This document shows positions 41,697-45,264 of a stretch of DNA of 64,000 nucleotides, piece after piece (position 1 is the stretch's first letter; every line of letters starts with the position of its first letter). The DNA is from Photobacterium sanguinicancri (GTDB lineage: Bacteria > Pseudomonadota > Gammaproteobacteria > Enterobacterales > Vibrionaceae): NCBI RefSeq assembly GCF_024346675.1, contig NZ_AP024850.1, positions 62,001 to 126,000 of the forward strand, in the 5' to 3' direction. The notes beneath the pieces are model-generated. The model ran no database searches. It was not told the DNA's origin and was given only the letters and a program-made list of their open reading frames with translations. The translations under genes and the position numbers were made by a program.

Positions 41697-42612
41697 TAAG
41701 CATGGTTTCTTTGCGATTCATAAACAGCAAGCTGTAGCGGCTCTACAAGACCTATTCAAGCGCCCGCTTGGCAATGTGCTAACGCTGGCGGTACTCGCAT
41801 TAGCGCTTACCTTACCTGCGACCTTCTATCTATTGGCGAAAAATGTCGCCTTGGTTGGCCAAGCATGGGAAAGCTCAACACAATTGACCCTCTATATAGA
41901 AGAAGGGATCGCTGAACCGACAGCCAATCGCCTTGCTGGCGAATTACGCGGCTGGTCTGAAATTGAAAGTGTGGAATACATTTCCCCCGATGAAGGCTTA
42001 CAGCAGTTTCGTCAAAATGCGGGTTTTGATCAGGCTCTCAGCTTGTTGGATGAGAATCCATTGCCTGCGGTCATGGTGATCCGCCCGACTGAAAACTGGC
42101 AGAGCAGTGCACAAGCAACCGCGCTTGCGGCAAAGTTGCGTACTGAATCGGCGATTGCCGAAGTGCGTTTAGACAGTGACTGGTTACAACGTTTAGCCGC
42201 CATCAAACAACTCGCTATTACCTTGGCAACGATTGTGTCAGGCCTGATGTTAATTGCCGTTTTCTTGATTGTCGGTAACACCTTGCGCCTGCAAGTACTG
42301 AATCAGAAAGACGAAATTCAAGTGATGAAATTGGTGGGTGCAACCGATCAATTTATCTTGCGACCTTACCTTTATACCGGTGTTTGGTACGGCCTGATTG
42401 GCGGTATTAGTGCATGGGTTTTGACTGCCATAGTGACAATTCTACTCGATAGCGCTGTCGCAACATTGGCGGGTTTATATGAAAGTAGCTATCGTTTAGT
42501 TGGCTTGAGTTGGGATGAAACCTTAATTTTATTGATGATTGCAGCGTTCCTCGGCTTAGGGGCTGCACGCTTATCAGCAGGTCGTCATTTGAAAGAAATT
42601 GAACCTGTCTGA
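41686..42612 (+). CDS. ftsX: Cell division protein FtsX
   Basis: Membrane partner of FtsE in the divisome. The 308-residue protein has four membrane segments: the first at about 32-52, a periplasmic loop to about 160 that contacts murein hydrolase activators, then three at about 175-195, 232-255 and 275-300, with the MacB/FtsX motif LRLQVLNQKDEIQVMKLVGATDQFI between. GTG start inside ftsE with AGGGAG upstream; overlap of 11 bases implies translational coupling. Confidence 0.95.
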   Translation: MARNKHGFFAIHKQQAVAALQDLFKRPLGNVLTLAVLALALTLPATFYLLAKNVALVGQAWESSTQLTLYIEEGIAEPTANRLAGELRGWSEIESVEYISPDEGLQQFRQNAGFDQALSLLDENPLPAVMVIRPTENWQSSAQATALAAKLRTESAIAEVRLDSDWLQRLAAIKQLAITLATIVSGLMLIAVFLIVGNTLRLQVLNQKDEIQVMKLVGATDQFILRPYLYTGVWYGLIGGISAWVLTAIVTILLDSAVATLAGLYESSYRLVGLSWDETLILLMIAAFLGLGAARLSAGRHLKEIEPV

Positions 42613-42734
42613 CATTTTTTTGTCAATATTTGGTGTAGTTTACCCAGCTTGCTTGCAACCGAGGGGTCTTTTTAGGCATTATAGGCGGTTCAAGTAACTT
42701 TTCATTCGTATAAAAAACACACGAGGTTTTTTAC

Positions 42735-43595
42735 ATGGCAAAAGCGATGTCTTCAATGGCTTTGGTTTCCGCAGATAGTTTGGATAGCTATATCCAAACC
42801 GTGAACGGCTACCCAATGCTTACCGCTGAGCGCGAACGTGAGCTTGCTGAACGTTTGCATTACGACGGTGATATCGATTCAGCAAAATCTCTCGTCATGT
42901 CGCACCTGCGTTTTGTTGTTCATATTGCACGCGGTTATTCTGGCTATGGGTTACCTATGGCTGATTTGGTGCAAGAGGGCAACATTGGTTTAATGAAAGC
43001 AGTGAAGCGCTTTAACCCAGAAGTAGGGGTTCGATTAGTTTCATTTGCTGTGCATTGGATTAAAGCTGAAATTCACGAATACGTATTACGTAACTGGCGT
43101 ATTGTGAAAGTTGCGACCACCAAAGCACAACGAAAATTGTTCTTTAACCTGCGCAAAGCGAAAAAGCGTTTGGGCTGGTTTAACAATGAAGAAGTAAACA
43201 TGGTAGCGGAAAAGCTCGGTGTGGATGCTTCTGAAGTACGTGAAATGGAATCGCGTCTGGCTGCGCAAGATCCAACATTTGAAATGCCAGCAGAAGATGA
43301 CGATCGCAACACTGGTTATACAGCCCCTGTTTATTTCTTAGAAGACAAAGCGTCTGATGTGGCTGTTAGCCATGAAGAAAATAACTGGGAATCGCACGCT
43401 AATAATCGTTTATCGCACGCATTAGCGACGCTTGATGAACGCAGTCAACACATTGTACGTTCTCGTTGGTTAGACGATGAAAAAACAACGTTGCAAGAAT
43501 TGGCAGATAATTATGGTGTATCTGCAGAGCGAATTCGTCAGCTAGAAAAGAATGCGATGAAGAAGCTTAAAGCGGCGGTGGGTGATTTATTCTAG
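42735..43595 (+). CDS. rpoH: RNA polymerase heat-shock sigma factor RpoH (sigma 32)
   Basis: Directs RNA polymerase to heat-shock promoters and is itself controlled by translation and by DnaK/FtsH. The 286-residue chain matches E. coli (284): region 2 with [37 protein letters not shown], the RpoH box [10 protein letters not shown] (about 132-141), and region 4.2 with [27 protein letters not shown]. The ATG follows GAGG. A 9-base-pair hairpin at 42778-42799 lies just inside the coding region, which is where E. coli rpoH mRNA carries thermosensing structure. The gene follows ftsX by 122 bases. Confidence 0.97.
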
Positions 43596-43629
43596 GATCG
43601 AATAAGCCCTTCTGATCACGCTACAAATG

Positions 43630-43655
43630 AAGCCGGTATGATACCGGCTTTTTTA
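43630..43655 (+). terminator. Rho-independent terminator of rpoH
   Basis: AAGCCGGTA (43630-43638) pairs with TACCGGCTT (43642-43650) over three bases, then a T run. Confidence 0.9.
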
Positions 43656-43696
43656 CGCCTAAAATTTGAGAGTTACCTCACACTTGTGCGTAGCTC

Positions 43697-44093
43697 TGTG
43701 CATTACTTAGCATCTTATCCACAGTTTATAATGGATCCAAACTACATGTAGTGGATCCTAAATCTGAAAACCACATTATCAACGTAATTCACAGACTTTT
43801 CCACAGTTGGTCGCTTTGTGATCGTTTTTTGATTGAGTGTTCTATCAGTGGGCGATCAACACCTTGTCCCTGCTGGGTTTATGCACAATGACTTCGGTGT
43901 GGATAAGCCATTTTTTCGCTGTGAGCTTGTGAGTAACTGTTGCCATGGAGTGGGGCGAATACCCAGTAACAGGGATTGGCATCATGGAATGATCGCAAAA
44001 CGGACGATCGTCACATATTATGGATCTAATAATAAAGCGGTCGGATCATTGATTCAGACCCTATTCAATAAAAAGTGAGAAAGTGAATGGATC
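43697..44093. other. DnaA-box and GATC-site cluster between rpoH and glpE
   Basis: Three exact matches to the DnaA box TTATNCACA: 43715-43723 (plus), 43879-43887 (plus) and 43898-43906 (minus). One-mismatch boxes at 43697-43705 (minus) and 43797-43805 (TTTTCCACA), and a weaker TTATCAACG at 43776-43784. Nine GATC sites start at 43734, 43754, 43820, 43854, 43991, 44006, 44023, 44044 and 44090, where one or two would be expected by chance. AT-rich GATC-led stretches occur at 43820-43832 and 44023-44035. This resembles an origin or DnaA-titration locus; the function is inference. No protein is recognised here. Confidence 0.6.
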
Positions 44094-44407
44094 AGTTTGA
44101 ACATATTTCAGTGCAGGATGCGTATAGCATGTTGCAGCAAGCACAAGGGATATTGGTGGATATTCGAGATCCCCAGTCACATGCCTTAGCACATCCTCAT
44201 AACGCCTTTCATCTGACCAACGACACCATGGTGCGTTTGATGGATGAAGTGGATTTTGATCAGCCTATTATTGTGATGTGTTACCACGGCATTAGTAGCC
44301 AAGGTGCGGCACAATACTTGATTAACCAAGGGTATGATGCGGTATATAGTATGGATGGTGGCTTCGAGGCTTGGCGTCGAGAAGGTTATCCAGCCAAAGA
44401 GCAGTAA
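44087..44407 (+). CDS. glpE: Thiosulfate sulfurtransferase GlpE (rhodanese)
   Basis: Single-domain cytoplasmic rhodanese, 106 residues as in E. coli (108). It moves sulfane sulfur from thiosulfate to cyanide or dithiol acceptors; the nucleophile is Cys65 in the loop [10 protein letters not shown], and the CDC25-type ends [15 protein letters not shown] and GGFEAWR are present. Its place with glpG fits the E. coli glpEGR operon, although a direct part in glycerol-3-phosphate metabolism is not established. Weak ribosome binding site (GAAAGTGA). Confidence 0.95.
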
Positions 44408-44424
44408 ACGCGGAGTAATAAGCA

Positions 44425-45264
44425 ATGCATCGGTTAGTCGGACTTCCTAATCCTCGACAGGCGCAAGCCTTTATCGATTATATGGCCTCACGTGGTATCA
44501 CCATTCAAATGGCATCAGAGCCGGAAGGGGTGTTTGCCTTGTGGTTAGCAGATCGCCAGTATTTGGTTGAAGTGGAAGCTGAGCTGGCCGCTTTTATTGC
44601 TGATCCTTATGCCAAGCGCTATTCAGCCGCATCGTGGGAGGTTGCTGAAAGTCGAACGGCGAAGTTCTACTACCAAAACCCGAGTTTGCTTAAAATGGTA
44701 AAAACCCAAGCCGGACCTTTTAGTTTATCGGTGATGGTGGTGGTGATTACTATCTATGTTTTGTGGTTTTTAGGGTTTCGTCAGCCGATTTTTGCTCTTA
44801 CCCATTTTCCGACAATGCAAGGTGATGAATGGCAGCTATGGCGTTATTTCTCCCATGCGCTAATCCATTTTTCGGCTTTGCATATTGTCTTTAACTGCCT
44901 GTGGTGGTGGATTTTAGGGGGGCAGCTGGAGCAACACAGCGGTAGCGGTAAGCTCATTCAAGTCTTCTTGTTCTCTGCGCTTATCTCTGGCTTTGCCCAG
45001 TTTTGGTTGCATGGTGCAAACTTTGGTGGTTTGTCGGGGGTGGTATACGCCTTGATGGGTTACATCTGGTGGCTTGGCTGGTTAGCACCAGAACGTGGCT
45101 TAGTGTTACCTAAGCCTTATGTGGGCTTTATGCTGGCATGGCTGGTTATTGGCTTTGCCGAACCTTTTGGTATGTCGATTGCGAACATGGCACACCTGTT
45201 TGGTTTACTGAGCGGTTGCGCGCTAGGCTTTATTGATGCCAAACGAACCCCAAGCCATGCTTAA
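44425..45264 (+). CDS. glpG: Rhomboid intramembrane serine protease GlpG
   Basis: Cleaves membrane proteins within the bilayer. The 279-residue protein has an N-terminal cytoplasmic domain (1-95) and six membrane helices. The catalytic dyad is Ser204 in GGLSGVVYALMGY and His257 in ANMAHLFGLLSG; the oxyanion region HxxxN (His-Ile-Val-Phe-Asn near 153-157) is conserved. It starts 17 bases after glpE with GGAG upstream and ends at a terminator, so glpE-glpG is the operon here. Confidence 0.95.
   Translation: MHRLVGLPNPRQAQAFIDYMASRGITIQMASEPEGVFALWLADRQYLVEVEAELAAFIADPYAKRYSAASWEVAESRTAKFYYQNPSLLKMVKTQAGPFSLSVMVVVITIYVLWFLGFRQPIFALTHFPTMQGDEWQLWRYFSHALIHFSALHIVFNCLWWWILGGQLEQHSGSGKLIQVFLFSALISGFAQFWLHGANFGGLSGVVYALMGYIWWLGWLAPERGLVLPKPYVGFMLAWLVIGFAEPFGMSIANMAHLFGLLSGCALGFIDAKRTPSHA

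Follow-up and report, generated by a model that had tools for sequence, protein, structure and literature searches.

Downstream of rpoH (42735..43595, + strand), whose product carries sigma-70 regions 1.2, 2 and 4, lie a terminator-like hairpin recognized by reading (43630-43655), a cluster of DnaA boxes and GATC sites, and then glpE (44087..44407, + strand), which encodes a rhodanese domain and is followed by glpG. The window, the 64-kb stretch of DNA that we analyzed, spans positions 62,001-126,000 of contig C1 (3.70 Mb), one of the two contigs of the genome. As the preliminary description had reported, exact matches to TTATNCACA are present at 43715 (+), 43879 (+) and 43898 (-), one-mismatch boxes at 43697 (-) and 43785 (+), and nine GATC sites from 43734 to 44093; no other exact match occurs in the window. 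Under the wider consensus TTWTNCACA, TTTTCCACA at 43797 is a fourth exact box. Three exact boxes per 64 kb is an ordinary count (3.4 in shuffles), and the whole 5.55-Mb genome holds 179. Their clustering exceeds chance, because at this density the genome as a whole would be expected to hold about 0.003 triples within 192 bp; this part of the original claim stands, but of the three exact boxes only that at 43715 shows good conservation across the genus. When the window was scanned in 400-bp steps, the locus reached up to seven boxes with at most one mismatch, four of them exact, compared with five boxes, none exact, at the best position elsewhere. The 491-bp gap between rpoH and glpE contains 10 GATC sites, where the GATC frequency of the window itself predicts 2.3 (P about 1.4e-4, uncorrected for multiple looks), and the entire window is GATC-rich (299 sites versus 187 in shuffles).

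The interval 43697..44093 singled out at first proved too wide. The conserved unit is a non-coding core of about 90-100 bp on the + strand (43712..43814), which is matched once per genome and was delimited with a genus alignment, a family alignment and the corresponding genus and family models; two of the three exact boxes, TTATGCACA at 43879 (+) and TTATCCACA at 43898 (-), fall outside it (43879..43906). The core starts with box A (TTATCCACA, 43715..43723), followed by a pair of GATC sites at 43734 and 43754, 20 bp apart and flanking CTACATGTAG (43733..43758), and then by box B (TTATCAACG, 43776..43784), box C (TAATTCACA in this genome, 43785..43793) and box D (TTTTCCACA in this genome, 43797..43805). 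All four boxes are on the + strand, with start-to-start spacings of 61, 9 and 12 bp. Core length is near-rigid: one internal indel column was found in the 50 genus sequences and one in the 46 sequences of the family alignment, a single-base column beside the first GATC, and lengths otherwise differ only at the alignment ends. Much of the conserved left half of the core consists of ACTACATNTWGTGGATC, which is not a DnaA box. Beyond the core, TGTGGATAA is present somewhere in 28 of 52 genus gaps and in 17 of 39 other family gaps.

A search with a 1.1-kb stretch gave matches in all 52 genus genomes, and in many of them the intergenic part of the match covered only about 43715-43811. The alignment of the rpoH-glpE gap in the genus had 51 rows; a genome that is 74% complete (G047, locus L058) was left out because the gap extracted for it was short, its core later being located between rpoH and glpE, and the identical cores of L009 and L010 were collapsed, so that the genus alignment holds 50 distinct core sequences. 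The family alignment holds 46 sequences, six of them shared with the genus alignment. Its leaning is toward good matches, because the 40 non-genus loci were picked among the match places of the genus model for genus spread and good scores; among the loci of 14 further genomes that were read besides, several are degenerate. Across the genus, 53 of the 104 core columns are invariant, and mean column identity in the core is 85% versus 66% and 60% in the intergenic flanks, a value comparable with the end of rpoH (83%) and the start of glpE (86%). Outside the core, mean column identity is 40% for the box at 43879 and 68% for that at 43898. Conservation in close relatives, which the preliminary description had chosen as the test of its reading, is therefore strong for the core, whereas these two boxes drift. 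The AT-rich stretches that had been likened to unwinding 13-mers are not conserved either (58% mean column identity at 43820; a gap in most relatives at 44023).

Within the core, the degree of conservation differs from element to element. The GATC pair is complete in all 50 genus sequences and in 115 of 117 named loci, which were chosen by the B-C-D array alone; in the family alignment, the first site is kept in 44 of 46 sequences and the second in 46 of 46. Box D shows no mismatch to TTWTNCACA in 49/50 genus and 45/46 family sequences (94 of 96 rows, six sequences being shared); it reads TTTTCCACA or TTATCCACA in 49/50 and 44/46, respectively, and TTATCCACA in 19/46 family sequences. Box B is identical (TTATCAACG) in 50 of 50 genus sequences and is replaced in the family alignment by TTATTCACG (5/46) or TTATTAACG (2/46), and in two divergent genomes it is TTATTCACA, an exact DnaA box. 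Variation in boxes B and D keeps or improves the DnaA consensus, as would be expected of DnaA sites. Box C is elsewhere mostly CAATYCACA or CTATTCACA. Box A matches the consensus without mismatch in 48 of 50 genus sequences but in only 19 of 46 family sequences, and has 0, 1, 2 and 3 mismatches in 39, 63, 12 and 3 of the 117 named loci. Because box A is so often inexact and boxes B and C carry 1-2 and 1-3 mismatches across the two alignments, the affinities of the boxes are uncertain.

The genus model found one match each in 294 of 296 family genomes, covering 12 of 13 genera, with one strong match in the genome analyzed here. The two genomes missed were G193 (1.0 Mb) and G052 (2.6 Mb). The family model matched positions 55-95 right after rpoH in G193 (E 2.8e-5), and likewise a remnant in the same place in G192 (1.1 Mb; E 1.5e-6); in both remnants box D has one mismatch, and box A and GATC are absent from the 66 bases upstream. 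In G052, the only full-size family genome that lacks the core, the family model gave a chance-level match only (E 0.046). Other degenerate members include G047 and G053, in which the 66 bases preceding the array contain no GATC, G070, in which they contain one, and G065, in which A, C and D are kept and box B is lost. SeqA was found in all six degenerate or missing members that were searched for it (G192, G193, G052, G053, G065 and G070). The SeqA match of G193 (C1:125808-126090) is split over two frames, by possible decay or a sequence error.

Scanning named genomes with a sequence pattern gave at least 120 loci; among the matches listed, 119 bear Vibrionaceae titles, from Vibrio, Aliivibrio, Photobacterium, Salinivibrio, Enterovibrio, Grimontia, Veronia and one 'Vibrionaceae bacterium', the species met by name not including Vibrio cholerae. 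One listed match, in a Firmicutes MAG, was taken as chance, with no rpoH or glpE there. Searches across the order, run with stricter filters under which weak matches are lost, gave matches in 26 of 295 genomes for the genus model, 23 of them in the family, and in 54 of 394 genomes for the family model at E<=0.01, comprising 34 family genomes (73.9-89.4 bits) and 20 others (<=25.4 bits). Eight of these 20 non-family matches were examined, and no match to ftsX, rpoH, glpE or glpG was found within the surrounding 8-11 kb; three of the eight are DnaA-box-rich and lie upstream of genes that by reading are murJ-, polA- and cysB-like, and one overlaps an ORF in part. A comparison of the core with the E. 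coli rpoH stretch gave no match beyond a single base. As far as searched, the core thus appears to be specific to Vibrionaceae. In other families of the order, two box-rich places of partly similar layout were seen upstream of a murJ-like gene (L303 4529-4581, in G563) and a cysB-like gene (L305 5176-5251, in G557), both genes again being named by reading.

Among the matches listed, 105 of 120 loci are flanked, within the set limits, by rpoH upstream and glpE downstream, and 12 of the remaining 15 lie no more than 450 bases from the end of their stretch. The array is separable from both neighbors. In G055, the core precedes glpE, and the upstream stretch that was read, about 0.9 kb long, contains a PanZ-family gene but no rpoH match; in Vibrio albus, no glpE match was found, and a gene that by reading is glpG-like follows the core. 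The two ~1-Mb genomes G192 and G193 keep the B-C-D array beside rpoH without a close glpE: their rhodaneses are only distant (22-27% identity), no glpG match was found in the stretches read, and in G193 rpoH and a UbiA-family gene converge on the array from either side. G052 has neither the core nor a close glpE. The distance from core to glpE varies from 67 to 329 bp, as opposed to the nearly fixed inner spacing. On balance, the box array seems to be retained in its own right.

Several other identities for the element were rejected. An RNA gene or UTR element is opposed by the lack of any Rfam match in 42400-44500 and by an RNAalifold consensus of five pairs, with no compensatory change and no covarying pair. 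A small protein is unlikely, with stops in five of the six frames of the core and the sixth broken by an indel in relatives. Neither window stretches compared with plasmids and E. coli genomes nor the stretch of a Vibrio relative compared with plasmids and phages gave a match to the core, which argues against a plasmid, phage or E. coli origin; five plasmid-collection matches of a window stretch covered the rpoH end only. The chromosome 2 trigger site crtS, which we take to lie around xseA, resembles the core in being non-coding, on chromosome 1, Vibrionaceae-wide and present once per genome. However, the crtS motif CAGnATATGTAACTnATGCTTTCGG, as given in a passage of PMC5854411, has no match in the window with up to three mismatches allowed, and it was not found in L079 around xseA either, so the search did not place crtS in this genome.

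The core stands outside oriC. Like oriC or ori1, it combines DnaA boxes of mixed strength with GATC sites, but it has no conserved unwinding element and no mnmG or mioC neighbors. The chromosome 1 origin does lie by mnmG and mioC, as had been supposed: an origin region with DnaA boxes is found there, and its TTATCCACA box is 113.7 kb from the core on the 3.70-Mb chromosome, so that the core is origin-proximal in the manner of datA. Several conserved DnaA boxes in a fixed array outside oriC are a mark of chromosomal DnaA-box control clusters that the core displays, and the closest parallel among these may be E. coli datA, likewise an intergenic DnaA-box cluster near oriC with boxes on both sides of a spacer. 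In E. coli, datA lies between tRNA-Gly genes and queG, a locus other than that of the Vibrionaceae core, which also differs by its GATC pair. Sequence relation is absent: the E. coli datA stretch with boxes 2, 3 and 7 scored at best 5.5 bits with the family model (E 0.63). The IHF consensus WATCAANNNNTTR has no 13-mer without mismatch in the 50 genus and 46 family core sequences; 13-mers with one mismatch, which IHF sites tolerate, occur in 21/50 and 13/46, somewhat more often than in shuffles (15% and 17%), and they overlap box A rather than the spacer in 21/21 and 11/13. According to passages in PMC5742627 and PMC4585315, datA is duplicated early owing to its position near oriC in E. coli, and the former passage describes the datA and oriC complexes as mainly head-to-tail assemblies of ATP-DnaA; the single orientation of the boxes in the core fits such complexes.

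Overall, we tentatively propose that the core serves chromosome 1 as a DnaA control site close to the origin and, as far as searched, peculiar to the Vibrionaceae, and that its role is most likely negative, like that of datA; this reading was already on the list of candidates in the preliminary description. Judging from the sequence and from known DnaA biology, DnaA binding, a preference for the ATP form, bending, SeqA binding and a negative sign would be expected of it. Box D, with its consensus sequence, would anchor DnaA, and boxes B and C, which are weaker, share its orientation and start 21 and 12 bp before it, would allow growth into a head-to-tail ATP-DnaA oligomer, which box A, 82 bp upstream of D, might join if the spacer bends. 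Lying ~114 kb from oriC1, the site would be doubled soon after initiation, and the second copy could titrate DnaA and/or promote the hydrolysis of DnaA-bound ATP, preventing the refiring of oriC1. The GATC pair suggests a possible Dam/SeqA target, at which hemimethylated new DNA would be distinguished from old DNA and the activity of the site timed. Against such gating, several degenerate members have lost the pair, and yet SeqA is present in the six that were searched.

The opposite sign has to be weighed as well. A DARS-like activator, at which ADP-DnaA assembles, releases ADP and is recharged with ATP to promote initiation, would also be a short intergenic core of DnaA boxes, like DARS1 and DARS2 of E. 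coli. The 12-bp spacing of boxes C and D on one strand is that of DARS1, as in the strand reading AATACACATGGTTATCCACAGG, and the best score of the family model among seven control loci fell on the gap upstream of mutH in the own genome (14.3 bits, E 0.0011, the alignment including a 10-base insert). However, a passage in PMC8682772 defines DARS by the opposite orientations of its core boxes I and II; the core lacks such a pair, all four of its boxes pointing in one direction, and the family matches in the order search, at 73.9-89.4 bits, stand far above the score of the mutH gap. Its position near oriC is also unlike that of the E. coli DARS loci as described in part of PMC5742627. Additionally, the activating side seems to be covered at other loci. 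DARS-like loci in V. cholerae are mentioned in a section of a review (PMC6090056), and in the own genome a DnaA-box cluster upstream of mutH (C1:3076465; L180 690-713) matches a segment of the E. coli rppH-mutH gap, the DARS2 region, at 34 of 36 bases. A DARS-spacing pattern with at most three mismatches matched 37 times in this genome, compared with 36 for the reversed control pattern; therefore, the pattern match in the mutH gap is by itself no evidence, and it is the placement upstream of mutH together with the shared bases that supports this cluster. Given the same-strand boxes, the proximity to oriC1 and the DARS-like loci elsewhere, we favor a negative, datA-like role, and consider an activating one unlikely. 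On chromosome 2, head-to-head boxes with DARS spacing are seen at C2:303708-303731 (L172 1501-1524), in a pattern search that overall ran at control level; 21 of their 24 bases are like the E. coli DARS1 core, and they lie downstream of a gene that by reading is small and NrdG-like. Near-palindromic head-to-head box pairs of DARS-like spacing with one or two mismatches also occur at C2:999012 and C1:1088475.

The remaining readings seem less probable still. The box cluster and a GATC pair kept in 115 of 117 named loci might serve as a passive DnaA sink or a SeqA foothold without catalytic effect, and a passage on subtilis and Streptomyces in PMC5742627 favors a sink; however, a fixed, family-wide spacing of weak boxes exceeds what a sink needs, and the two GATC sites are missing from G047, G053, G192 and G193, which makes this proposal quite doubtful. 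DnaA-dependent transcription control of glpE-glpG would account for the location of the core upstream of glpE in most loci read, for its staying next to glpE in G055, whose upstream neighbor is not rpoH, and next to glpG in Vibrio albus, and for G052, whose lack of both core and close glpE counts against the control-site reading. In G192 and G193, however, the array persists beside rpoH without a close glpE, between converging genes in the latter, and the variable distance to glpE contrasts with the nearly fixed inner spacing, so that we regard such control as improbable. That another protein binds here, at a site resembling DnaA boxes by chance, could explain why ACTACATNTWGTGGATC, so prominent in the left half, is not a DnaA box; the changes in boxes B and D track the DnaA consensus, and box D is exact nearly throughout, which renders this very improbable. 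Least credible by far is a relic or secondary replication origin, another of the candidates listed at the outset: the boxes, GATC density and AT-rich stretches of this genome speak for it, but no unwinding region is conserved, since these stretches drift, and an origin region between mnmG and mioC is already present.

A bolder version of the datA-like reading holds that the core is the missing origin-proximal DnaA off-switch of this family. It would inactivate DnaA without an IHF bend, with the GATC pair placing it under Dam/SeqA control, and would add to datA and DARS a third class of DnaA control site, one that sets the timing of chromosome 1 and, through crtS, of chromosome 2. We consider this version rather unlikely, because of the IHF-consensus counts and the loss of GATC in divergent members. 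The Vibrionaceae are a model for two-chromosome bacteria, and their DnaA control has been described largely by analogy with E. coli. The kind of element, a chromosomal DnaA-box control cluster, is known; new would be its sequence, the GATC pair, the family-wide fixation and the absence of opposed DARS boxes. A search of the open-licence literature yielded no title or abstract start naming this locus and no report of a Vibrionaceae datA equivalent. In a transposon study of V. cholerae, every intergenic region was classified, according to a part of PMC3799429. The core offers a defined target for asking what limits initiation on chromosome 1 and whether a DnaA site away from the origin is gated by Dam methylation, and the persistence of the array in ~1-Mb genomes without the usual downstream gene adds to its interest as a target.

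A second conserved patch lies between the core and glpE at 43998-44018. It is GGACGATCGTCACAT-like, contains the GATC at 44006 and shows 97% mean identity in the genus alignment; lying about 75 bp before glpE and retained by many members of the genus, it is possibly the site of a glpE regulator.
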